NCBI GenBank assembly: GCA_027021785.1
Contig: JALUTR010000145.1
Location: 1 to 48,493, forward strand
DNA: 48,493 nt
Source: Fidelibacterota bacterium
Lineage (GTDB): Bacteria; Fidelibacterota; Marinisomatia; Marinisomatales; JAADGP01
Reading direction: 5' to 3'
In this document: one piece after another, positions 9,446 to 43,906 of the stretch
How positions within the stretch are numbered: the stretch's first letter is position 1
How the letters are laid out: every line of letters starts with the position of its first letter
Translations under genes and position numbers: made by a program
Notes under the pieces: generated by a model
What the model was told of the DNA's origin: nothing
Database searches by the model: none
What the model saw: only the letters and a program-made list of their open reading frames with translations

Positions 9446-9528
9446 GAGCCAATAACCAAGAGCCAAGAGCCAATAACCAAGAGCCAAGAGCCAAGAGCCA
9501 AGAGCCAAGAACCAAAAACCAAGAACCA
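9446..9528. repeat. Heptanucleotide tandem array, consensus GAGCCAA (about 12 degenerate units)
   Basis: gagccaa taaccaa gagccaa gagccaa taaccaa gagccaa x4 gaaccaa aaaccaa gaacc. Confidence 0.95.
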
Positions 9529-21576: not shown

Positions 21577-21630
21577 TGAAACGTGAAACGTCATTTTGGT
21601 TCTTGGCTCTTGGCTCTTGGCTCTTGGCTC
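21577..21630. repeat. Adjacent heptamer arrays: TGAAACG x2 (21577-21590) then TTGGYTC x5 (21596-21630; reverse complement of GAGCCAA)
   Basis: tgaaacg tgaaacg tcatt ttggttc ttggctc ttggctc ttggctc ttggctc. Confidence 0.93.
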
Positions 21631-29831: not shown

Positions 29832-32800
29832 ATGTCAAAACTATCATTCACGGCCGTTATTTTTGATCTGGACGGTGTCATTACCCAAACCGCGCTGGTT
29901 CACAGCCGGGCCTGGAAGGAAATGTTCGATGAATATCTGCGCTTCCGCGAAAAACAATATGGCGAACCGTTCCGGGAATTCACCCATGATCGTGACTACC
30001 TTCCGTACGTTGATGGAAAACCAAGATACGAAGGGGTGCAATCGTTCCTGAAAGCAAGGGGCATCGATATTCCCCGGGGAGATCCCCAGGATCCTCCGGA
30101 TGAGGAAACCGTCTGTGGTCTGGGAAACCGGAAAAATCAAAAATTCAATGAAGTCCTGGAACGGGATGGAGTCGCGGTATACAAGAGCACGGTTTCGTTG
30201 GTCAAACAGTTGAAGGATGAAGGGATTCGTGTCGGTGTGGCTTCTTCCAGCAAGAATTGCAAGACGATCCTGGAAACGGCCGGGATAGAGGACCTTTTTG
30301 AAGTGCGCATCGACGGCGTTTCATCGGTCGAACTCAATCTGAAAGGGAAACCGGAACCGGATATTTTCACTACCGCCTGCGATTATCTGGGCGCTGCATA
30401 CGATCGGTCGGTTGTGGTGGAGGATGCCGTGGCCGGTGTTCAGGCCGGCGCCAACGGCAACTTCGGTTTGGTTGTGGGGGTCGCGCGCGAAAACAATGAA
30501 CGGGAATTGAAATTGAACGGCGCCGATATTGTGGTGCGGGACCTGGAGGAAATCGGTATCGAAAAAATCGAGGAATGGTTTCGCAAGGGGTTGGAAGAGG
30601 ATCAATGGAGTCTTAATTATTATGACTACGTTCCCGAGCGGGAACGAACCCGGGAAGCATTGTGCACTGTCGGCAACGGGTATTTCGGTACGCGGGGAGC
30701 GGCGGAAGAATCCGGGGCCGATACGATTCATTATCCCGGCACCTATCTCGCGGGAGTCTACAACCGGTTGCAGTCCGAAATCCACGGCAAAAACATCGTT
30801 AACGAAGATCTGGTCAACTGTCCCAACTGGTTGCCGATCCGGTGGCGAATCGGGGCCGGCCCCTGGACGGAACCGAATAACGTGGAAATAATCGATTTCC
30901 ATCACCGGCTTGATCTGAAAGGCGGAATTCTGCACCGTAACATGGTCGTACGCGATGAAAAAGGACGGGAAACACGGGTGGAATCGGAACGCCTGGCCAG
31001 CATGGCCGATCCGCATTGCGCCGCCCTCCGATACCGTTTGACCCCCCTCAATTACAACGCCACGATCACGGTCCGTTCGGGCCTTGTGTACGACGTTACC
31101 AATACGGGCGTTGAACGATACCGGGACCTGGCAAACCGGCATCTCGAACTTATCGCAAAAGGCGGTGACGGAAATTCCGTCTACGTTCTCATGGAAACGA
31201 ATCAATCCGGGATACGGATTGCCGAGGCCGCGAAAACTTTGGCTTTCGTCGCGAATCAGGAAGAGAATGCGGACGGTATTTTAACGGAAGTTGAAGGTGG
31301 AATATTTACCGGCATTACCACGCCTCTGACCACCGGACAAACGCTGACGATAGAAAAACTGGTATCCATTTATTCCTCGCAGGACACGGATGAGAAGGAT
31401 CCCCTGACGGCGGCGCGGAACTGTGTCGAAACATTAAGAAGATACCGTGGAGTTAAACAAGACAGCGAAAAGGCCTGGGAATCCATCTGGCGGGAAACCG
31501 ATATACGGATCACGGGTGACCGGTTTGCGCAAAAACTGATCAGGTTGAATCAGTACCACCTTCTGATCACAAGATCAATTCACAACGTTGGGATTGACTG
31601 GGGCATACCGGCCCGCGGTCTTCATGGCGAGGCCTATCGGGGTCATATTTTCTGGGACGAATTGTTTTGTCTCCCTTTCTATTGTCTGCATCTCCCGGAA
31701 ACGGCGAAATCAACGCTGCTTTATCGCTACCGGCGCCTTGACAAAGCCCGGGAGGCTGCCGGGGATAGCGGATACCGCGGCGCCATGTTTCCCTGGCAAA
31801 GCGGCAGCGACGGGAGCGAAACAACCCAAAAGTTCCATCTGAATCCGCTGTCAGGCGAATGGGGGGAAGACCACAGTTATTTGCAACGGCATGTATCGAT
31901 CGCGGTTGCCTGGAATGTCTGGAATTATTATCAAATGACGGCGGACAGGGAATTCCTGGCCCGGTACGGGGCCGAAGTGTTCTTTGAGGTCGCCCGGTTC
32001 CTGGCCAGCCTGACAACATTCAATCCGCGAACGGAACGGTATGATATTGAAAAGGTCATGGGACCCGACGAGTTTCACGAAGGGTATCCGGATGCCCGGG
32101 AGGCGGGGCTGAGAAATAACGGTTACACCAACCTCATGGCGGCCTGGGTGTTCGACAAGGCGCAGGAACTTCTTGGTCTGCTTTCTCCCGGCGCCCGACA
32201 ATCGGTCATGGAAAAGATCGGTCTCACGAGCGAAGAAATGTCACGCTGGAAAGACATCGGCAACAAATTGACGATCGGGATTTCCGCTCAGGGCGTCATT
32301 GAACAATTTGACGGGTTTTTCGCGCTGAAGGAATTGGATTGGGACGACTATCGGGAGCGCTATGGAAATCTTTCCCGGCTGGACCGGATCCTGAAAGCCG
32401 AAGGCGATTCTCCGGACCGGTACAAGGTCCTCAAACAGGCCGACACGCTGATGCTGTTTTATCTCCTGGATCCGGAGGAAGTGCGATCCATCCTCATGGA
32501 ACTTGGCTATTCCGCGGACGATCAAATCCTGAAGAAGAATTTCGATTATTATTTTCAACGAACCTCCCACGGCTCAACGCTTAGCTTCATCGTGCACGCG
32601 GCGTTGGCGAATGAAACCGAATATACCCGCCGGGCATGGGAAATGTTTCAGCAATCCCTGTGCAGTGATTATCGCGATATTCAGGGGGGAACCACGGGAG
32701 AGGGCATCCATACCGGTGTGATGGGAGGGGCGATCATGCACGTGTTGAACGCCTATGCCGGCCTGGATTTTTCCGGGGAAAGGCTGCAAATCAATCCCGC

Positions 32801-33005
32801 TTTACCACGGACGTGGCGGGAGATACGGTTTAACGTTATTTTCCGTAAGGTCGGCTATCGATTACGGATTACTTCCAATAGAATCGAAATTACCGCCGGG
32901 GAACGCAATGCCGATCCGGTCGATATTGAAGTCCTTGGTAAAAGGTATTCCCTTCAAACTGGTGTTTCTTTGGAAATAGAATTAACCAGTAAAAATGGAT
33001 CGTAA
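29832..33005 (+). CDS. Fused beta-phosphoglucomutase-like HAD / GH65 family glycoside phosphorylase
   Basis: N-terminal AVIFDLDGVITQTALVHSRAWKEMF...GKPEPDIF; C-terminal GH65 with GTRGAAEE, HGEAYRGHIFWDELF and catalytic-region MGPDEFHEGYPD. Confidence 0.92.
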   Translation: MSKLSFTAVIFDLDGVITQTALVHSRAWKEMFDEYLRFREKQYGEPFREFTHDRDYLPYVDGKPRYEGVQSFLKARGIDIPRGDPQDPPDEETVCGLGNRKNQKFNEVLERDGVAVYKSTVSLVKQLKDEGIRVGVASSSKNCKTILETAGIEDLFEVRIDGVSSVELNLKGKPEPDIFTTACDYLGAAYDRSVVVEDAVAGVQAGANGNFGLVVGVARENNERELKLNGADIVVRDLEEIGIEKIEEWFRKGLEEDQWSLNYYDYVPERERTREALCTVGNGYFGTRGAAEESGADTIHYPGTYLAGVYNRLQSEIHGKNIVNEDLVNCPNWLPIRWRIGAGPWTEPNNVEIIDFHHRLDLKGGILHRNMVVRDEKGRETRVESERLASMADPHCAALRYRLTPLNYNATITVRSGLVYDVTNTGVERYRDLANRHLELIAKGGDGNSVYVLMETNQSGIRIAEAAKTLAFVANQEENADGILTEVEGGIFTGITTPLTTGQTLTIEKLVSIYSSQDTDEKDPLTAARNCVETLRRYRGVKQDSEKAWESIWRETDIRITGDRFAQKLIRLNQYHLLITRSIHNVGIDWGIPARGLHGEAYRGHIFWDELFCLPFYCLHLPETAKSTLLYRYRRLDKAREAAGDSGYRGAMFPWQSGSDGSETTQKFHLNPLSGEWGEDHSYLQRHVSIAVAWNVWNYYQMTADREFLARYGAEVFFEVARFLASLTTFNPRTERYDIEKVMGPDEFHEGYPDAREAGLRNNGYTNLMAAWVFDKAQELLGLLSPGARQSVMEKIGLTSEEMSRWKDIGNKLTIGISAQGVIEQFDGFFALKELDWDDYRERYGNLSRLDRILKAEGDSPDRYKVLKQADTLMLFYLLDPEEVRSILMELGYSADDQILKKNFDYYFQRTSHGSTLSFIVHAALANETEYTRRAWEMFQQSLCSDYRDIQGGTTGEGIHTGVMGGAIMHVLNAYAGLDFSGERLQINPALPRTWREIRFNVIFRKVGYRLRITSNRIEITAGERNADPVDIEVLGKRYSLQTGVSLEIELTSKNGS

Positions 33006-34080: not shown

Positions 34081-35508
34081 TTATTCTATTTCTTTTATGA
34101 AAATATTCCTGAAGGAAACGGAAGTCTCCCAGTCGTGATTTTGCAGACCGATGTACCCTTCCCTGGCAAAATCCGCGACCTTCCCCCGGGGTTCGGCCAT
34201 CCAGTCAATGACCTCTTTACCATTTAATTCCACCCGGATATTGGATCCCTTGAATGTAATCTTGTAATGGTTCCATTCCCCCGTGGGCCTGGACGCGTTC
34301 ATTTTCGGTGCTTCGGCGTCGTAGACGGCGGCCGTCTTGTGAACACCTTCGCTGGCGTCATCGATCTGTATTTCAAAAGAGTGATAAATATAGTTGTCGC
34401 TCACCGGCACGTCGGGGACCCTCAAAAATATTCCCGAATTGGATTTGAAATCGGAGCACTTGAAATCAAGTTCCAACACGAAGTCCTTGTACTTTTTTAC
34501 ACTGTACCAAAGCAGTCCCATTCCACCATGCGTTTTAAGAACGCCGGTTTCCCGGTCTAACTCAAAGTAACCCGGGCCGTAGTGGTTCCAGCCGTGTTTG
34601 GCGTACTTGCCCTGCCGGAAGCTGAGCAGTTCCTCGTAGCCTTTGTAGTATGTGATACTATCGATGTATTCCAGCCCCTTGCGGATGATTTGTGAAGGGT
34701 TAAAGGTTTCGTCTTCCTGCTCGAGCTCAATGGCGAGGATGCCGTCAAAATGCTGCAGGGTCAGTTCCGCCAGGAGGTCGTGGATATTGGTCTTGCCCCG
34801 GCCGAAAGGAACGGTGCGGGCATCTTTGGAGCCAAATGTGTCCAGATCTTCCAGATGCACATCGAGAATCCGGCCCTTTAACATTCTGAGCCCATCAATA
34901 ACGTTCACCCCCGTTCTTACCCAGTGGCCCACATCGGCACAGGCCCCGATGCGCGGGTCCAGGCCGTTTACAACCCTCAGAACCGCTTCGGGACGGGCAT
35001 ACCTGGACGGCGCCGGATGATTGTGAACGGCCACGCGAATGTTGTATTCCTTCACCATCTTTTCGATAAGCGAAAAGTCGTCGTAGTCCGGTTCCGTCAC
35101 AATCGTCCGGATGCCCATCTTTTTCGCGAAATCGAAGACTTCGCGCATACTCTGTTCGTTGTTCTCGAACTTCACCACGCCGTAGCCGGCCAGTGTGATC
35201 CCGGCTTTCCCGAGGGCTTGTTTAACGGCGTCCATCTGTTTTTCGTTCAGGTAGTGGTCGAACTTTACATCCGGATCATCTTTGCTCAGGATTTGGCCCG
35301 GGTAGGCCTCAAGATACTTGAGGCCCAACGCCTTTACTTTTTCCACACTTTCAAAGAACGAAAATTTTCTGAACGTCCAGGTCTGGACGCCGATGTTCAT
35401 TTCTTTTATTCGTACTTCCTGATAATTCACGGTTGCTTTCTCCTCCTGTCCGACGCAAGTGAGCCAGAGAAGTCCGATAATCGGGATTAGAAGCGTTGTT
35501 TTTTTCAT
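34081..35508 (-). CDS. Exported TIM-barrel sugar phosphate isomerase/epimerase-like + DUF1080 (3-keto-disaccharide hydrolase family) fusion
   Basis: Signal peptide MKKTTLLIPIIGLLWLTC; TIM barrel (NIGVQTWTFRKFSFFESVEKVKALGLKYLEAYPG...IGACADVGHWVRTG); DUF1080 (GGMGLLWYSVKKYKDFVLELDFKCSDFKSNSGIFLR...GEWNHYKITFKGSNIRVELNGK...GYIGLQNH). Confidence 0.88.
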   Translation of the reverse strand: MKKTTLLIPIIGLLWLTCVGQEEKATVNYQEVRIKEMNIGVQTWTFRKFSFFESVEKVKALGLKYLEAYPGQILSKDDPDVKFDHYLNEKQMDAVKQALGKAGITLAGYGVVKFENNEQSMREVFDFAKKMGIRTIVTEPDYDDFSLIEKMVKEYNIRVAVHNHPAPSRYARPEAVLRVVNGLDPRIGACADVGHWVRTGVNVIDGLRMLKGRILDVHLEDLDTFGSKDARTVPFGRGKTNIHDLLAELTLQHFDGILAIELEQEDETFNPSQIIRKGLEYIDSITYYKGYEELLSFRQGKYAKHGWNHYGPGYFELDRETGVLKTHGGMGLLWYSVKKYKDFVLELDFKCSDFKSNSGIFLRVPDVPVSDNYIYHSFEIQIDDASEGVHKTAAVYDAEAPKMNASRPTGEWNHYKITFKGSNIRVELNGKEVIDWMAEPRGKVADFAREGYIGLQNHDWETSVSFRNIFIKEIE

Positions 35509-36755
35509 GATTTCCTCGGGTTCCATTTTCCTTCAGCCACGGCCGGGATAAAGTTTTCAAGGTTGGGTGGCGGGAAGGCAATCGTCTTCCCTTGTTCGAC
35601 GCTCATGTAGGCGGTCATTAACAATTCCGTAACGTTAACTCCGTCACTGAAGTTTTCTTCCGGTCGTTTGCCCGCCAGAAATGACCGGACCATGTGGCGG
35701 TTTTCCGCGGTATAGCCATATTCATCCTGCTCGTTACTGATCACCGGCATGAGACCCATTTCAGCGTTCTGCTTTTCCACCAGGTCTTCTCCGGCGCTGC
35801 CCACCACGTTACGACTGAAAAACACCTTCAGACCGGTATCCAGCGTATTGATGGAGAGCGAATACTCCGGTCCCAGCAATTCCATGCTCAATCTCAGGCC
35901 GGCCCCCACAAAACTCCAGGAAGTGGTTGTTTCCACTACCAATGTTTCACCCTCCTCTGTTTTGTATTCGATAAGGGAACGGGCGAAATCTTCCGCCGGC
36001 CGGTTGAGATAGTCGGTTTTGCCGCCGCTGTTTTCGGAAAGAATCCGGGCGTATTTCTCGCGCTGCCATTTCAGGCAATTGGCGTACGCGTTAACCGACA
36101 CCGGCGTCAGGACCGAGCGGTCGGCGCCGGGGGGCGTGAGCATGAACCGGGCTTCTTCGACGGAATGGCACATCATGTCGTTCAGGACGCCGCCGCCCTG
36201 GAGTTCGCCTTCCCAGAACCACGGCATGTGGGGCCCGCTGTGTTCCTCCGCCGCGCGGGCCAGGTAGGGCCGGCCGGCGATGGAGGCGCCCCGCGCCCAG
36301 ATGATTTCCTTTCCGCGGGTGACGGCGGGAGCGAAAACCTGGTTTTCCAGATAGCCATCCAAAAGATTTACTTTTTGCGCCAGTTCCAGCATTTTCCGCG
36401 CTTCCGCCACGTTGCGACCAAGGGGCTTTTCACAGGCAACGCCCACCAGTTCACCCTTCCCGGATTCGATTGCCGCCGCGATTTCTTCCATGACTTCGAT
36501 ACGGGTAAAATTGGGAGAACAGATCCAGAGCGCGTCGATGTCCGGGTCGGTCACCATTGCGGTTATGGAGTCGAACACCTTCGCGTCGCCTACGCCGATT
36601 TCTCCGGCCAGGGAAGCGGTTTCCGCGGCTGATTTTCTTGTTTTGGACAATACCCCGGCAACGTCCACATCCCGAACCCCGATCAGTGACCTGATATGAA
36701 AGCGCGAGATGAAACCGCCGCCGATGAAGCCGATCCTTAATCTTTTTGTGCTCAT
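35505..36755 (-). CDS. Gfo/Idh/MocA-family oxidoreductase (no signal peptide)
   Basis: LRIGFIGGGFISRFHIRSLIGVRDVDVAGV Rossmann start; VACEKPLGRNVAEARKMLELA; GGGVLNDMMCHSVEEARF. Confidence 0.92.
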   Translation of the reverse strand: MSTKRLRIGFIGGGFISRFHIRSLIGVRDVDVAGVLSKTRKSAAETASLAGEIGVGDAKVFDSITAMVTDPDIDALWICSPNFTRIEVMEEIAAAIESGKGELVGVACEKPLGRNVAEARKMLELAQKVNLLDGYLENQVFAPAVTRGKEIIWARGASIAGRPYLARAAEEHSGPHMPWFWEGELQGGGVLNDMMCHSVEEARFMLTPPGADRSVLTPVSVNAYANCLKWQREKYARILSENSGGKTDYLNRPAEDFARSLIEYKTEEGETLVVETTTSWSFVGAGLRLSMELLGPEYSLSINTLDTGLKVFFSRNVVGSAGEDLVEKQNAEMGLMPVISNEQDEYGYTAENRHMVRSFLAGKRPEENFSDGVNVTELLMTAYMSVEQGKTIAFPPPNLENFIPAVAEGKWNPRKS

Positions 36756-36783: not shown

Positions 36784-38007
36784 TTACGTCGAGGAGGCGG
36801 GTGCGGGAGATGGAACCTCTTCCTCCCGGAAGAAAATGAGAAACACCGCCGCGGAAAGTACCGTCAGGAAAAAAGGCACGAGAAAAACACCGGTCCAGTC
36901 TGTCTCACTGCCGGAAGTAAAAATGCTCTGAATAAAACCGGCGAAATTGCTGCCGATATAGCTGCCGACGCCTAATACTACCAGATTGATAAGGCTTTGT
37001 GCCGAATGACGAATGTCTTTCGCCGCTATGCGATCGACGTAAATGAAAGCCACCGTAAAGAAAAACACATAACAGAAACCATGCAGCGCCAGGGAGGCGA
37101 TTACCAGCCATGTCGGCGTACCGATGGCAAAGATCAGGTACCGCAACGGCCAGGCCAGGATTCCCAGGATCATTGTTTTCCTGATGCCGTACCGCGGCAG
37201 GAAGTAAGGCAAAAGGAAGGCCATGACAATGATTTCCGCAATTTGTCCGATGACCATTACCCCCGCCACCGTGGAACTGTCGATCCCGATCTTCGCCGAC
37301 GTCAGGAACGGCGCCGTAAGAACGTAGTAGAACATCAGTTCCGTAGAAACAATGAAGGCGATGATGAAAAAGATGAGCGTGTTTTTGTTTTTCAACATTT
37401 TAACGGCTTCCAGGAAAGCTAACGGGTTGGCGGCCGTTTTTTCCGGTGGCGTATCGGGTAGCGCGAGGGAGACCAGACCCATAACGAGGGAGAATATTCC
37501 CGCCAGGAGGAGAGTGTCACCGGCAAACCCCATGGAAGCTTCGCCTTTTGCCACCACTCTCCAGCCCGAAAGAGCCAATCCCGCCACAATCCATCCGATG
37601 GTTCCCCAGACGCGGATCTGACCGAACTCTTTTTCCGAATTCTTCAGGTTTATCAGGGCGATGGAGTTGGTAAGCGCAAGGGTCGGCGCGTACAGCAGGC
37701 AGTAGATAAACATCAACCAGAGCATGGTCGAATAATCGGAGATAGTGGAAATATAGATCAGGAGGGCGCCTCCCACCAGTTGCAGTAGAGCAACTACTTT
37801 CTGAGAAGCAAAGTAGCGATCCGCAATCTGCCCGCCGATGAAGGGGGAAATGATAGTGGCGAGGGGTAAGAGGCTGTAAATGATTCCAACCTGGGTGCCC
37901 GTGAATCCCAGATCGTTAAGGAGATACGCGGAGAGAACCGGCGCCCACGCTCCCCAGATGGCGTATTGAAGAAACATCATGGCGCCGAGACGAATTTTTA
38001 CTCCCAT
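36784..38007 (-). CDS. MFS transporter (nucleoside:H+ symporter-like)
   Basis: About 12 hydrophobic segments; MMFLQYAIWGAWAPVLSAYLLNDLGFTGTQVGIIYSLLPLATIISPFIGGQIADRYF; FGQIRVWGTIGWIVAG. Confidence 0.85.
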   Translation of the reverse strand: MGVKIRLGAMMFLQYAIWGAWAPVLSAYLLNDLGFTGTQVGIIYSLLPLATIISPFIGGQIADRYFASQKVVALLQLVGGALLIYISTISDYSTMLWLMFIYCLLYAPTLALTNSIALINLKNSEKEFGQIRVWGTIGWIVAGLALSGWRVVAKGEASMGFAGDTLLLAGIFSLVMGLVSLALPDTPPEKTAANPLAFLEAVKMLKNKNTLIFFIIAFIVSTELMFYYVLTAPFLTSAKIGIDSSTVAGVMVIGQIAEIIVMAFLLPYFLPRYGIRKTMILGILAWPLRYLIFAIGTPTWLVIASLALHGFCYVFFFTVAFIYVDRIAAKDIRHSAQSLINLVVLGVGSYIGSNFAGFIQSIFTSGSETDWTGVFLVPFFLTVLSAAVFLIFFREEEVPSPAPASST

Positions 38008-38170: not shown

Positions 38171-39769
38171 TCAGACGATTTGCCTTTTGTCCGGATCCCA
38201 TTCAACTCTTCGACCGGTCAGATAGGATTCCGTGGCCATGTGGCAGGCGAGCGCTTCGTGCAAACCGACTTCAATATCGCATTTCGGTTGTCTGTTTTCC
38301 CGGATGGAATCCAGCCAGTCCTTTATATGCAGATGGGTGGGGTCCATGCGTTTCCCTTCACGATAAGTGTAAACCAGGCCCTTATTGGCAAAATATCTGG
38401 CAGTAGCCGAGGTGACACCGTCAATTTGCTTTGATCCCGGGGAATAAGTGTAAATGGGATAGCGGGTGTTTATTATTCCGCTTTCTATCCTTTCCCTGTA
38501 CCGGGTGGATTCCGGGTCGGCCGTTACGACCAGGCCGTGTATTTTGCTGTCCCCGGCTCCGCCGATTTGCATTGTCGCGTCATGGCCCATAAAGATATTC
38601 CCCCGGTTTTTATTGCTAGACAGGGTGGCGCTGTACAGCAGGGTCAAATCCTTATCCGGGTATTCCAGGATGGCCTGGAACACGTCGGGCACATCACGAC
38701 CATCCTTGTAGAAATAAATGCCTCCCGAGGCGGATACGAATTTCGGCGCGCCCAGCTCCATGACCTGGTTAACGGCATCGAATTCATGTGAAAATAAATC
38801 GCCGGAGAGGCCGGTACCGTAATCGTACCAGCAACGCCACCGGAAGAATCTTTTCAATGCTTCCCGGCCAAACGGTATCTTTGTCGGAGCCGGCTCCTGG
38901 AACGTATCCCAGTCGATTGTTCGTCGGTTTCCCTTGGGGTCAATGTCCCAGACCCAGGCGCCCCAGGGGGAATTGCGGTTGGTCGTTACCTCCACAAGGT
39001 TGACCGGCCCAAGCAGTCCCTGTTGGACGATTTCCCGCGCTTTCTCAAGACTATCCACCTGGCGGTTTTGATGGCCGAGTTGAAAAACAATGCCGGTTTC
39101 TTTCACCGTATCATACACGTCAATGGCCTCCTGAAATGTCCTTGTCATTGCTTTTTCACAATAGACATGCTTTCCCGCCCTGGCGGCATCGATGATGATC
39201 CGCGAATGCCAGTGATCCGGTGTGGCGATGATCACGGCATCGATATCATCGTTTGCCAGCATTTCCGTGTAATGTCGATATCTTTTGGCCGCCTCCTTTG
39301 GTTTCCCGCCGGGACGTATTTCATTTGTTGAAGCGGCTAAAGCGGCTCTGGCCCTTACATTGAAGAGGTCGCACACACCAACCAGCGACACATTAAGGTC
39401 ATCCTGTTGCATGAATGTGGCATACCCTTTATCCAGCTTGTTTTTTTGGGCATTGGCCGCTGCTTTTTCAACCCATTCGGGGGTCGCGAAACCGGCGCCC
39501 CGCACCAGGTGCTGACCCCGGCCGCCGTAACCGATAATGCCTAACCGAAGGTGCTCACCGGGACTTTTTGAGGATATGACTGCCGGCGCCTGGTGCTCCG
39601 AAATAAGGTCGGAAAGTAAATTGGATTTCCTCAGCGCATCCCGTTTCATTTTTCTCAGGATATTGTAGAACAACACTCCCACAACCGGAAGTGTTGCCAA
39701 ACCTTTTAGTATTTCCCTCCGATCAAGATCCGTCCCGGAGGCTTTTGAATCGGTATGTTCTTCTTTCAT
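38171..39769 (-). CDS. Gfo/Idh/MocA-family oxidoreductase with Tat-type N-terminus
   Basis: DLDRREILKGLATLPVVGVLFYN twin-arginine motif; LRLGIIGYGGRGQHL Rossmann; VYCEKAMTRTFQEAIDVYDTVKETG. Confidence 0.9.
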   Translation of the reverse strand: MKEEHTDSKASGTDLDRREILKGLATLPVVGVLFYNILRKMKRDALRKSNLLSDLISEHQAPAVISSKSPGEHLRLGIIGYGGRGQHLVRGAGFATPEWVEKAAANAQKNKLDKGYATFMQQDDLNVSLVGVCDLFNVRARAALAASTNEIRPGGKPKEAAKRYRHYTEMLANDDIDAVIIATPDHWHSRIIIDAARAGKHVYCEKAMTRTFQEAIDVYDTVKETGIVFQLGHQNRQVDSLEKAREIVQQGLLGPVNLVEVTTNRNSPWGAWVWDIDPKGNRRTIDWDTFQEPAPTKIPFGREALKRFFRWRCWYDYGTGLSGDLFSHEFDAVNQVMELGAPKFVSASGGIYFYKDGRDVPDVFQAILEYPDKDLTLLYSATLSSNKNRGNIFMGHDATMQIGGAGDSKIHGLVVTADPESTRYRERIESGIINTRYPIYTYSPGSKQIDGVTSATARYFANKGLVYTYREGKRMDPTHLHIKDWLDSIRENRQPKCDIEVGLHEALACHMATESYLTGRRVEWDPDKRQIV

Positions 39770-40287
39770 GTCAGCAAATCCTCAGTTGGTTGTGTGTTGT
39801 TCCTGAAAATTAATCTGTCCAAACCAATAATATTGCTCGTGGGGAATACATAAAGCACATACAAGGCACAAGCTTCGATCAAATTCTTATTCACGATAAT
39901 GTAACTGCCTTCCCACGGCCGGGAATATTCCAGTCCTAATAACGGCGGTGTAAAGAAATAATATATCAGGAGCAATACCATGCCGGCAATGGAAGCGTAG
40001 CGCCCCAGCAAACCTAACATTAAAGCCAAACCGATAAGTGTCAAGCCCCACATATTCAGATAGTCCACAATGCCCAATACCACAGGATTAGCCACGATTG
40101 ATTTAGCCAACCCGGAAAAGATCCATTGCACGTCCAATAAATATGCTGCGGATGACCAGTAGGGATTTAGTAGTTTCGCCACACCTTCATAAAGCAGGTG
40201 CCAGCCGATAAGAACACGGAGCAATGATAAACCGATTAATTGATTATTGGTGTATTTTAATGATACCGGTACGGCTTTATTCCCCAT
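39766..40287 (-). CDS. DoxX-family membrane protein
   Basis: LIGLSLLRVLIGWHLLYEGVAKLLNP...GLTLIGLALMLGLLGRYASIAGMVLLLIYYF. ATG at 40287 has an upstream AGGAGGA; the longer ORF runs through repeat DNA. Confidence 0.85.
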   Translation of the reverse strand: MGNKAVPVSLKYTNNQLIGLSLLRVLIGWHLLYEGVAKLLNPYWSSAAYLLDVQWIFSGLAKSIVANPVVLGIVDYLNMWGLTLIGLALMLGLLGRYASIAGMVLLLIYYFFTPPLLGLEYSRPWEGSYIIVNKNLIEACALYVLYVFPTSNIIGLDRLIFRNNTQPTEDLLT

Positions 40288-40422: not shown

Positions 40423-40475
40423 TCCCGACATTCGTCGGGAGATCTTGGTTCCTGGCTCTTGGCTCTTGGCTCTTG
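40423..40475. repeat. TCCCGAC-ATTC-GTCGGGA hairpin plus 4-unit TTGGCTC heptamer array
   Basis: Hairpin 40423-40440; array ttggttc ctggctc ttggctc ttggctc 40445-40472. Confidence 0.9.
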
Positions 40476-40629: not shown

Positions 40630-42513
40630 ATGTTCCAAATTATCCGCAATAAAACAGTCCTGTGGTCAATTTTCCTGTTGATGTTTGGTAGTCATTATGG
40701 GAAAGAACCTGGGGATGATAAAGTTTCACCGGCAGCGAAAGTAACCGTTTATAAGGACCCCACAAAATCGGTTACCGACCGGGTGGAGGATCTCCTGAGC
40801 CGGATGACACTGGAAGAGAAAATCGGTCAGATGACACAGGTTGACAGGCAATTTCTTGAGCGGGACAGCGATATAGCGACCCGTTATTTGGGTTCTCTTC
40901 TGAGTGGCGGGGGATCCACCCCGGACGAAAACCGTCCCCAATCCTGGGCTGACATGTACGATCGCTATCAGAAGATCGCGTTGTCCTCCCGGCTGGGAAT
41001 ACCGATCCTCTATGGGATTGATGCCGTCCATGGGCATAATAATGTTGTCGGTGCAACTATTTTCCCCCACAACATTGGTCTGGGATGTGCCGATGATCCC
41101 GATCTGGTTGAGGAAGTGAGTCGCATTACAGCCCTGGAGGTCGCCGGGACCGGAATCGACTGGACTTTCGCTCCCTGTATAGCCGTACCCAGGGATGAGC
41201 GTTGGGGAAGAACGTACGAGGGTTACGGGGAAAGTCCGGATATTGTGGCCCGGCTTGGAAAAGCGGCCGTTCGCGGGTTTCAGTCCGGTAAATTGGGGAG
41301 CCCCGGGAATATTTTGGCCTGCGCGAAACATTTTATTGGCGACGGGGGCACCAAGTGGGGAACGGGGCGGAACGGCAAAGCGGACAGAGGCGATACGCAG
41401 ATTTCCGAGGAAGAATTAAGAGCGATTCATTTGCCCGGTTATTTGAGCGCCATAGAAGCCGGTGTTGGGTCGATAATGGCTTCTTACAATCAATGGAACG
41501 GCACTTACTGCCACGCCAGCAAGTATTTATTAACGGATTTGTTAAAGGAAGAGCTTGGATTCGAAGGTTTTGTAGTGTCCGATTGGGAAGGAATTGATCA
41601 GATCCCGGGTGATTACAAAGCGGACATTATTACGGCCATAAATGCCGGGATAGATATGGTAATGGTCCCGGGCGCGGTCCCTTTCGGCGGTGAATCTTAT
41701 ACCCGTTTTATCGAACTCCTGAAAGAAGCGGTCGAAGAGGGATCCATACCGAGGAGCAGAATTGACGATGCTGTACGGCGAATCCTGAAAATTAAATTCA
41801 GAATGGGACTTTTCGAAAACCCGTTTACCGACCGATCGCTTACCGAAAAGATTGGTTCAAAAGAACATCGTGCTGTCGCACGGCAGGCCGTGCGACAGTC
41901 GTTAGTTCTCCTCAAAAATAATAACGGTTTACTCCCGTTGTCAAAGAATATGGAACGGATACTGGTCAGCGGTAAAAATGCGGATGATTTGGGAAACCAA
42001 TGCGGTGGCTGGACAATCTCCTGGCAAGGGGAAAGTGGGTCGGTCACCGAAGGCACGACGATTCTTGAAGGTATAAGGGAAGTGGTTTCACCGGCTACGG
42101 AGGTTCTCTTCTCCCGGGACGGGTTTGGAGCAAAAGACGCGGATGTGGCCATCGTGGTGGTGGGCGAAACACCTTATGCGGAATGGGAAGGAGATAAGGC
42201 TGACCTCACCCTGGACAATGAGGATCGGGAGACGCTCAGGCGGGTAAAAAGCGCCGGCATCCCGCTGGTTGTTATTATTGTTTCGGGACGTCCGCTTATT
42301 ATTGAATCGGAAATTGATGATTGGGATGCGCTTATCGCGGCCTGGTTGCCCGGCACGGAAGGACAGGGAGTGGCCGATGTGCTCTTCGGCGATTACAATC
42401 CCACCGGGAGGCTTTCCATGTCCTGGCCCCGCTCCATGTCCCAAATACCCATTAATGTAGGGGACGAAAAGTATGATCCCCTTTTTGAATATGGTTTCGG
42501 CCTGAGTTATTGA
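40630..42513 (+). CDS. Glycoside hydrolase family 3 (beta-glucosidase-like), exported
   Basis: [49 protein letters not shown] nucleophile region; ends YEFGFGLSY-like YGFGLSY. Confidence 0.95.
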
Positions 42514-42566
42514 TCGGGCGAACAATCCTGACACGAATAGATCATGAAAATAAAAGGAAAAATATA

Positions 42567-43865
42567 GTGAATCCTCGAATTACATTAGTTGGCGCCGGGA
42601 GCGCGACTTTCGGTCTTGGTACCATCGGCGACATTATTAATAACAAGGCCCTGGAGGGTAGCACTATCGTGCTCCACGATATTGATTCCGGCGCTTTGGA
42701 TCGTATCGCCAATATCTCCAAACAATATATTCAGGAGAAAGGCTTCCCATATAAATTGGAAGCAACCCTGTCCCGGGATGAAGCTTTGCAGGACGCTGAC
42801 TTTATTATCATTTCTATCGAAGTCGGTGATCGCTTTGCTCTTTGGGAACAGGATTGGCAGATTCCCCTGAAGTACGGTATCAAACAGGTTTATGGGGAAA
42901 ACGGAGGCCCGGGGGGTATTTTCCATGCCTTACGGATCATTCCGCCTGTTTTGGATATTTGTGAGGACATCCAAAACATTTGCCCGGAAGCCCTGATTAT
43001 TAATTTCAGTAACCCAATGACCAAGATTGTCCACGCGGTTCGCACGCGCTACCCGGACCTGAATTTCGTGGGGTTATGCCACGAAGTAGCGTCCCTGGTG
43101 GAACATTTACCGAAATTGCTGAACGTGCCGTTTTCCGACTTGTCTATTCGCGCGGGCGGCCTGAATCATTGCAGTATTCTGGTGGAAGCCACGTACCGGG
43201 ATTCCGGGAAGGATGCCTATCCGGATATCCTTGAAAAGGGCCCCGATTATTTTTTAACGGCGCCGGCCTCCTTCAATCATATTGGTGAGCGGTCCTTGTT
43301 CTTGGAAATCCTGCGCCGGTTTCAGGTTCTGCCGATTACCACCGACAGTCATATCGGTGAATATATCCAGTGGGCATGGGACGTTGCGGATCATGACGGG
43401 ATTCGGCTGTTTTATGACACATATAAGAAATCTATGCTTTCGAGAAAAGGTCTTCCGATCGAACTATTGGAACATGGCATGGATGAAAAAGAATATTGGC
43501 GGGTAGTGCCTATCATCGCGGGGATTCTCACGGATTCCGGCCACGAAGAGCTGGCCGTGAATATTCCGAATGATGGATTTATTGACGCATTGCCACGGAA
43601 TCAGATTGTGGAAGTGCCGGCGGTAATAGACCGGAACGGTATTCATGGGATTAAACTTGATCCTTATCCCCCAGCGTTCGCGGGTCTGCTCAAAAACCAG
43701 GTGGCGGTCCACGACCAGTTAACCGAAGCGGTTCTCACGGGATCAAAACAAGCCGTGTTGCAAACCTTACTTGTCGACCCGGTAGTGGACCGGATACAGT
43801 CCCTGGAGGAGATGCTGGACACCATGCTGGCTTTGCAGAAACCGTATTTGGATTATGTAAAATAA
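42567..43865 (+). CDS. Glycoside hydrolase family 4 (NAD+/Mn2+-dependent glycosidase)
   Basis: ITLVGAGSATFGLGTIGDII; NFSNPMTKIVHAV; GLCHEV; RAGGLNHCSI. GTG at 42567 preferred. Confidence 0.92.
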   Translation: MNPRITLVGAGSATFGLGTIGDIINNKALEGSTIVLHDIDSGALDRIANISKQYIQEKGFPYKLEATLSRDEALQDADFIIISIEVGDRFALWEQDWQIPLKYGIKQVYGENGGPGGIFHALRIIPPVLDICEDIQNICPEALIINFSNPMTKIVHAVRTRYPDLNFVGLCHEVASLVEHLPKLLNVPFSDLSIRAGGLNHCSILVEATYRDSGKDAYPDILEKGPDYFLTAPASFNHIGERSLFLEILRRFQVLPITTDSHIGEYIQWAWDVADHDGIRLFYDTYKKSMLSRKGLPIELLEHGMDEKEYWRVVPIIAGILTDSGHEELAVNIPNDGFIDALPRNQIVEVPAVIDRNGIHGIKLDPYPPAFAGLLKNQVAVHDQLTEAVLTGSKQAVLQTLLVDPVVDRIQSLEEMLDTMLALQKPYLDYVK

Positions 43866-43866
43866 A

Positions 43867-43906
43867 GAGCCAAGAACCAAGAGCCAAGAGCCAAGAGCCA
43901 AGAGCT
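43867..43906. repeat. GAGCCAA heptamer array (5 units plus partial), starting 1 bp after the GH4 stop codon
   Basis: gagccaa gaaccaa gagccaa gagccaa gagccaa gagctc. Confidence 0.93.

Follow-up and report, generated by a model that had tools for sequence, protein, structure and literature searches.

A DoxX-family membrane protein paired with a twin-arginine Gfo/Idh oxidoreductase that carries a flavinylation-like motif: a candidate route from periplasmic glycoside oxidation to the quinone pool

Exported NAD(P)-dependent oxidoreductases of the Gfo/Idh family are a common feature of Bacteroidota and related phyla, and the way in which they dispose of their electrons is unexplained in the literature that we examined. 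The question arises in concrete form at one locus of the window, that is, the whole stretch of 48,493 nucleotides analyzed here (contig JALUTR010000145.1), where a gene for a DoxX-family membrane protein runs directly into a gene for a Gfo/Idh enzyme. A first-pass annotation had given the positions of both open reading frames and their ATGA overlap, all of which the sequence bears out:

39766..40287, minus strand: doxX, DoxX-family membrane protein of 173 amino acids (ATG at 40287)
38171..39769, minus strand: Gfo/Idh oxidoreductase, Tat-type, probably membrane-anchored, 532 amino acids (open reading frame and Pfam)
39766..39769, minus strand: ATGA, the doxX stop TGA overlapping the gfo ATG (sequence)

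Our reading, which we favor with moderate confidence, is that DoxX and Gfo/Idh together form a glycoside dehydrogenase, bound to the membrane and facing the periplasm, that passes its electrons to the quinone pool. Covalent FMN together with a dedicated DoxX partner would provide a concrete and testable answer to the problem of electron disposal.

The DoxX protein belongs to PF07681 (31.4 bits, for a Pfam cut-off of 23.6), and PF04173 (DoxD), expected of a DoxDA subunit, is absent from it in Pfam. It has four predicted transmembrane helices, which are also seen in AF2 models of homologues. Alignments of 20 and 76 homologues show conservation of R24, W29-H30, Y33-E34-G35, K38, W44, P114, G127 and E138; the invariant residues include R24, W29, H30, Y33, E34, K38, W44 and E138, and these could form a quinone site. 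A profile search of the PDB with DoxX found no solved homologue. The partner matches PF01408 (58.4 bits in Pfam) and has both the Rossmann and the C-terminal domain of a Gfo/Idh enzyme; its closest solved chains are PDB 8tdh/8tdf (E 1.8e-24), and Pfam gives no match to FMN_bind (PF04205). The nearest curated family is NF058561, the BT_2158 glycoside 3-dehydrogenase, which it matches at 119 bits for an equivalog cut-off of 750; it was ruled out as an equivalog of BT_2158 and is a distant relative only. The residues expected of a working enzyme are conserved among 75 full-length anchored Gfo/Idh proteins:

39524..39541, minus strand: Rossmann glycine motif G77..G82, NAD(P) binding (G77, G80 and G82 in 75/75)
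39152..39157, minus strand: E205-K206, Gfo/Idh catalytic lysine motif (75/75)
38786..38788, minus strand: H328, second catalytic residue, in a D-x-x-x-H motif (H328 in 75/75, D324 in 60/75)

A single-chain AF2 model was made of the doxX-gfo pair of one relative (L062) with the doxX stop codon read through as Gly. Its pTM of 0.73, which comes without PAE or coordinates, says nothing on the interface. Foldseek with the read-through model returned Gfo/Idh proteins only, among the matches listed, GFOR 1rye included.

The first-pass annotation had left the conservation of the adjacency to a genome survey, and the survey found it conserved. DoxX is present in 57 of 245 genomes of the phylum (Ca. Neomarinimicrobiota), and Gfo/Idh lies directly downstream in all 30 phylum loci that were fetched, the window included. 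Gfo/Idh proteins of at least 48% identity nearly always adjoin DoxX; those of the following group, with 37% or less, do not. A scan of named contigs in 84,980 species genomes gave at least 545 DoxX relatives, of which 80 loci were kept as a cross-phylum set; Gfo/Idh is directly downstream of DoxX in 72 of these 80, a set that overlaps with the phylum set in some genomes and is not independent of it. The loci come from Neomarinimicrobiota, Bacteroidota, Chlorobiota, KSB1, Aminicenantes, Latescibacterota, Acidobacteria, Calditrichota and Sumerlaeota. A separate sample of 297 Bacteroidota genomes had few members, and the survey therefore rests on the scan of named contigs. Among the eight other loci, Gfo/Idh is directly upstream in two (L090, L110), DoxX is fused to another domain in two (L111, L112), L113 and L114 are cut by contig ends, and L087 is the single clean exception. 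In the eighth (L107), DoxX and Gfo share one open reading frame; it was not counted as a true fusion, because the sequence has NN where the stop may be. The ATGA coupling itself recurs in L128. The DoxX-Gfo/Idh pairing is real, widespread and well above chance.

What holds the enzyme at the membrane is suggested by its N-terminus:

39650..39721, minus strand: conserved twin-arginine helix, residues 17-40, RREILKGLATLPVVGVLFYNILRK; predicted uncleaved anchor

The N-terminus reads ..LDRREILKGLATLPVVGVLFYNILRKMKRDALRK, with several basic residues right behind the hydrophobic stretch. It has no AxA there, as the first-pass annotation had noted in suggesting that the enzyme may stay in the membrane. 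The stretch is real, and retention is supported by the basic flank and by the conservation of the helix; what had been overlooked is that this is a helix peculiar to DoxX partners. The pattern RRxxLKxxAxxPVxGxF, followed by K/R-rich sequence, occurs in 92% of 76 DoxX-adjacent Gfo/Idh open reading frames and in none of 18 non-adjacent Gfo/Idh frames that contain RR, from those loci too. The mean net charge at positions 20-32 after RR is +3.3 in the adjacent proteins versus +0.07 in the non-adjacent ones, and 56-63 residues separate RR from the Rossmann fold in the former versus 34-35 in the latter. The twin arginine, followed by two hydrophobic residues and K, is present in 75/75 anchored Gfo/Idh proteins; the invariance of P28 and G31 is due in part to selection, since the collection pattern contained both, and the figure of 92% is free of this effect. 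An AxA regular expression, tried as a discriminator of anchored and cleaved proteins, failed to separate the groups; flank charge and motif conservation were used instead.

The same RR helix is found in DoxX partners whose catalytic parts are very different. Two loci (L034, 6292-8291; L090, 2822-4805) have DoxX with a different, upstream Gfo/Idh of 25-26% identity that possesses the RR-PVxG helix and lacks the flavinylation-like motif described below. The helix is also present in the DoxX fusions L111 and L112 and their paralogues. These are single reading frames made of DoxX, the RR helix, a flavinylation-like motif and an aldo-keto reductase (AKR)-like barrel (L111, 7959-9548; L112, 3279-4853); others are L164, L165, L166 and L167, and the genome of L112 (G245) has five such loci. 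No Pfam family matches the fused catalytic domain, which AF2 models as a barrel most similar to the aldo-keto reductase 4exb (E 4e-7). As the helix is shared by Gfo/Idh and AKR-like partners, it travels with DoxX rather than with one enzyme fold. Judged from these comparisons, the RR segment is not an ordinary signal peptide; it is a conserved helix restricted to DoxX partners, and it may pack on DoxX.

The fusions resemble dual Sec-Tat proteins such as the actinobacterial Rieske protein (PMC5449189), in which an even number of transmembrane helices precedes an RR motif and one further such helix in a single chain: the fusions have four helices, an RR motif and one transmembrane helix, then basic residues behind that helix and a cofactor-type domain. 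Only the fusions L111 and L112 have the dual Sec-Tat architecture, the corresponding parts in the window being separate genes. The text of PMC5449189 contains neither DoxX nor Gfo, and the DoxX-AKR fusions are not a family described there.

The electron route from cofactor through DoxX to quinone, as the first-pass annotation had drawn it, is plausible and lacked a carrier. A candidate is provided by a block inside the enzyme that had escaped that annotation:

38402..38422, minus strand: putative ApbE flavinylation motif D450-G-V-T-S-A-T456, predicted FMN acceptor T456

ApbE recognizes D-x-x-[S/T]-G-A-[S/T] and places FMN on the last residue (PMC12052999); the window's DGVTSAT agrees with this consensus at all positions except for Ser in place of Gly. 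The exact motif stands at the aligned position in two relatives (DAVTGAT in L095, DAISGAT in L105), and Pro or Ala variants in about ten. Among the 75 full-length anchored proteins, D is kept in 74, S/T at 453 in 72 and T/S at 456 in all 75. The strict motif is found in 56/75 DoxX-adjacent frames and in 0/363 other frames, and it is missing from non-adjacent Gfo/Idh (0/23, the joined L107 left out) and from the second Gfo/Idh of the operon, Gfo2 (0/25). In another protein, changing the Gly of the motif to Ala halved flavinylation (PMC12052999). Motifs of the ApbE kind also lie directly behind the RR helix in the DoxX-AKR fusions, exact (SGAT) in L164 and L166. In both AF2 models the segment that holds the motif has low confidence (residues 618-633 in the first, 217-230 in the second), which is what an exposed loop would give. 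The Gfo/Idh enzyme is probably flavinylated by covalent FMN, and this FMN would fill the chemical gap between hydride carrier and quinone.

If this is so, apbE should matter to the pair. Bare presence or absence of apbE was rejected as evidence, the gene being found in 206/245 phylum genomes (Fisher 0.06 in high-quality genomes), and linkage conditioned on the absence of FMN_bind was used instead. The gene is far from DoxX in most genomes; among the roughly 33 for which both positions are listed, 10 have it within 10 kb. It is the next gene in L035/G186, is present at the DoxX locus of Dysgonomonas (L118), and opens the order apbE-doxX-gfo in L128, with an ATGA overlap at both junctions. Proximity is seen in 6/9 DoxX genomes without FMN_bind versus 4/26 with it (Fisher p=0.007), and DoxX is overrepresented among apbE-positive genomes that lack FMN_bind (12/28 versus 38/178, p = 0.018); both p values are optimistic, as the genomes are related, many are incomplete and shared descent is ignored. 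The genome of the window has two apbE matches, neither of them in the window; one of the two has an FMN_bind protein as its neighbor on contig C14. An apbE without other recognized substrate tends to sit with the DoxX pair.

The genes that follow the pair speak to the substrate:

36784..38007, minus strand: MFS transporter (Nuc_H_symport-like), probable uptake of pathway product (Pfam)
35505..36755, minus strand: second Gfo/Idh (Gfo2), without signal sequence, probable cytosolic keto-sugar reductase (open reading frame, Pfam)
34081..35526, minus strand: exported fusion of a xylose-isomerase-like TIM barrel and a 3-keto-disaccharide hydrolase, PF06439 (Pfam)

The order DoxX, anchored Gfo/Idh, MFS transporter, Gfo2 and isomerase-like/3-keto-hydrolase fusion is that of the window and of most Neomarinimicrobiota relatives; the transporter keeps its equivalent position in most of them, copies of Gfo2 in relatives are 72-91% identical, and an export signal is visible at the N-terminus of the fusion. 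The exceptional Latescibacterota locus (L087, 5163-9747) has DoxX, MFS transporter, Gfo2 and the 3-keto-hydrolase fusion; the anchored Gfo/Idh is missing from the locus, and none was detected elsewhere in that genome at E<=1e-30. Several Bacteroidota, among them Dysgonomonas sp. 25 (L118) and L119, have the DoxX pair followed by a BT_2158 glycoside 3-dehydrogenase (885 and 897 bits, above the cut-off) and then by a 3-keto-hydrolase-like gene, to which L118 adds an isomerase-like gene and apbE. BT2158 is a periplasmic glycoside 3-dehydrogenase required for disaccharide use (PMC11300592), and PF06439 proteins are tied to 3-keto-disaccharide hydrolysis (PMC9007349). Given the 3-keto-hydrolase of the operon and the BT_2158-type enzyme of the relatives, the generic sugar of the first-pass annotation can be narrowed: the gene content points to a 3-keto-glycoside pathway that begins with oxidation of glycosides at C3. 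In L118 (7986-14647) and L119 (7992-12545), where both occur, the soluble BT_2158-type enzyme and the anchored enzyme may work in series.

The scheme that we propose would run as follows. Gfo/Idh would be exported folded by Tat with NAD(P) bound, and its uncleaved RR helix, probably packed against DoxX, would keep it in the membrane. It would oxidize a disaccharide or glycoside at the C3 hydroxyl, giving the 3-keto-glycoside, the hydride passing to the tightly held NAD(P), from there to the FMN that ApbE would have attached covalently to T456, and then to a quinone bound at DoxX. The exported isomerase-like/3-keto-hydrolase fusion would cleave the 3-keto-glycoside, the products would enter through the MFS transporter, and Gfo2 would reduce the 3-keto-sugar in the cytosol. 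COX1 was found in the genome of the window, which indicates a respiratory host. More tentatively, DoxX, the RR-PVxG helix and a tethered FMN might constitute a general quinone-reductase module that accepts unrelated NAD(P)-dependent enzymes, Gfo/Idh and AKR-like ones among them; such a module, if true, would open the periplasm to nicotinamide chemistry with the respiratory chain as sink.

Other readings of the pair have to be weighed. Some Gfo/Idh enzymes keep their cofactor tightly bound and carry out reactions that involve no net change in redox state, and the anchored enzyme might likewise run a closed cycle of the GFOR or GH109 type, re-oxidizing its cofactor within each catalytic cycle and leaving DoxX as a mere anchor or assembly partner. 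These precedents, the appearance of GFOR 1rye in the Foldseek list and the few DoxX partners without flavin motif (L034, L090) speak for it; such an enzyme, however, could do without the conserved D-x-x-[ST]-x-A-[TS] motif and without a linked apbE. Moreover, the soluble BT_2158-type Tat enzymes found in such operons have neither the motif nor the RR-helix signature, so that periplasmic Gfo chemistry itself does not require either, and we consider a closed cycle unlikely. DoxX proteins as a group have diverse or unclear roles, which would leave room for a non-redox DoxX that helps in Tat export or cofactor insertion, or binds sugar, with D-x-x-T-S-A-T as a structural block. Conservation agrees with this in that, beyond one invariant His and several aromatic or charged residues, no redox residues can be assigned in DoxX. 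A merely structural block is, however, hard to reconcile with an acceptor that is always Thr or Ser and an Asp that is nearly always kept, as in the published motif, with the recurrence of the motif behind the RR helix in unrelated DoxX-AKR fusions (exact SGAT in two of them), or with the linkage of apbE; we hold a non-redox DoxX to be quite improbable.

The components could also run backwards, quinol feeding DoxX and then the flavin/NAD(P) enzyme, which would reduce a periplasmic keto-sugar or other carbonyl. Sequence fixes no direction, the second type of partner is AKR-like, a family whose members are often reductases, and direction is reversible in principle in flavinylated systems (PMC8238504). 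Against this, the operon of the window contains a 3-keto-disaccharide hydrolase and no other exported dehydrogenase, and the keto group is most simply made by the anchored Gfo/Idh itself; we hold reverse flow to be about as improbable as a non-redox DoxX. The quinone-reducing dehydrogenase is the reading that we retain.

Several known systems resemble parts of it. The periplasmic BT_2158 (BT2157-2158) pathway for 3-keto-glycosides in Bacteroides (NF058561, PF06439) likewise combines a Tat-type exported Gfo/Idh, a 3-keto-disaccharide hydrolase and an isomerase-like protein, and BT_2158 shares its catalytic residues with the window enzyme; the BT_2158-type enzymes of the studied loci differ in having no RR-PVxG helix, no flavin motif and no DoxX partner of their own. 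Enzymes of the LacABC type consist of a flavoprotein plus a cytochrome, and DoxDA includes a membrane protein of the DoxX/DoxD clan proposed to handle quinone. The LacABC glycoside 3-dehydrogenase of Caulobacter (PMC9007349) oxidizes disaccharides at C3 beside DUF1080/PF06439 hydrolases, a transporter and a sugar reductase; it is an unrelated three-component enzyme and not a Gfo/Idh with DoxX. DoxDA thiosulfate:quinone oxidoreductase shares the clan of its membrane protein with the window, where the partner is Gfo/Idh and not DoxA, and the membrane protein PF07681 and not PF04173. ApbE-flavinylated systems (NqrC, RnfG, NapH-, MsrQ- and PepSY-like; PMC8238504, PMC11334425) have the covalent-FMN motif in an exported protein that sits beside a membrane electron-transfer protein, with apbE linked; unlike them, the window enzyme has no FMN_bind domain, and its motif is inside the Gfo/Idh domain. 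The five membrane apparatuses described for these systems do not include DoxX, the two surveys mention neither DoxX nor Gfo, and ApbE substrates still to be identified remain (PMC8238504). Taken singly, extracytosolic electron transfer that depends on ApbE, glycoside dehydrogenases of the Gfo/Idh family in the periplasm, and DoxX proteins are all known, and we did not find their combination in the literature; no paper joining DoxX with Gfo/Idh or with Marinimicrobia was found in a search that covered few subscription papers, so that an earlier description is possible. Our model would give this branch of DoxX a function and make Gfo/Idh a new class of ApbE substrate, and it would tie the metabolism of 3-keto-glycosides to respiration, both in uncultured marine bacteria and in the cultured Maribellus, Maribacter and Dysgonomonas.

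The surroundings of the operon contain further genes of glycoside metabolism. A GH3 glycosidase and a GH4 enzyme are encoded at 40630-43865, divergently from the DoxX operon. Catalysis by GH4 enzymes itself involves NAD and an oxidation at C3, so that two C3-redox strategies may be neighbors here. At 29832-33005, a HAD hydrolase and a GH65 domain are joined in one protein, probably a disaccharide phosphorylase that includes a phosphoglucomutase-like part; an SSF transporter precedes it. Finally, short arrays of a 7-base unit (TTGGCTC/TTGGTTC) occur, far above chance, at 9460-9522, 21596-21630, 40445-40472 and 43867-43901 of the window, one of them just upstream of doxX.
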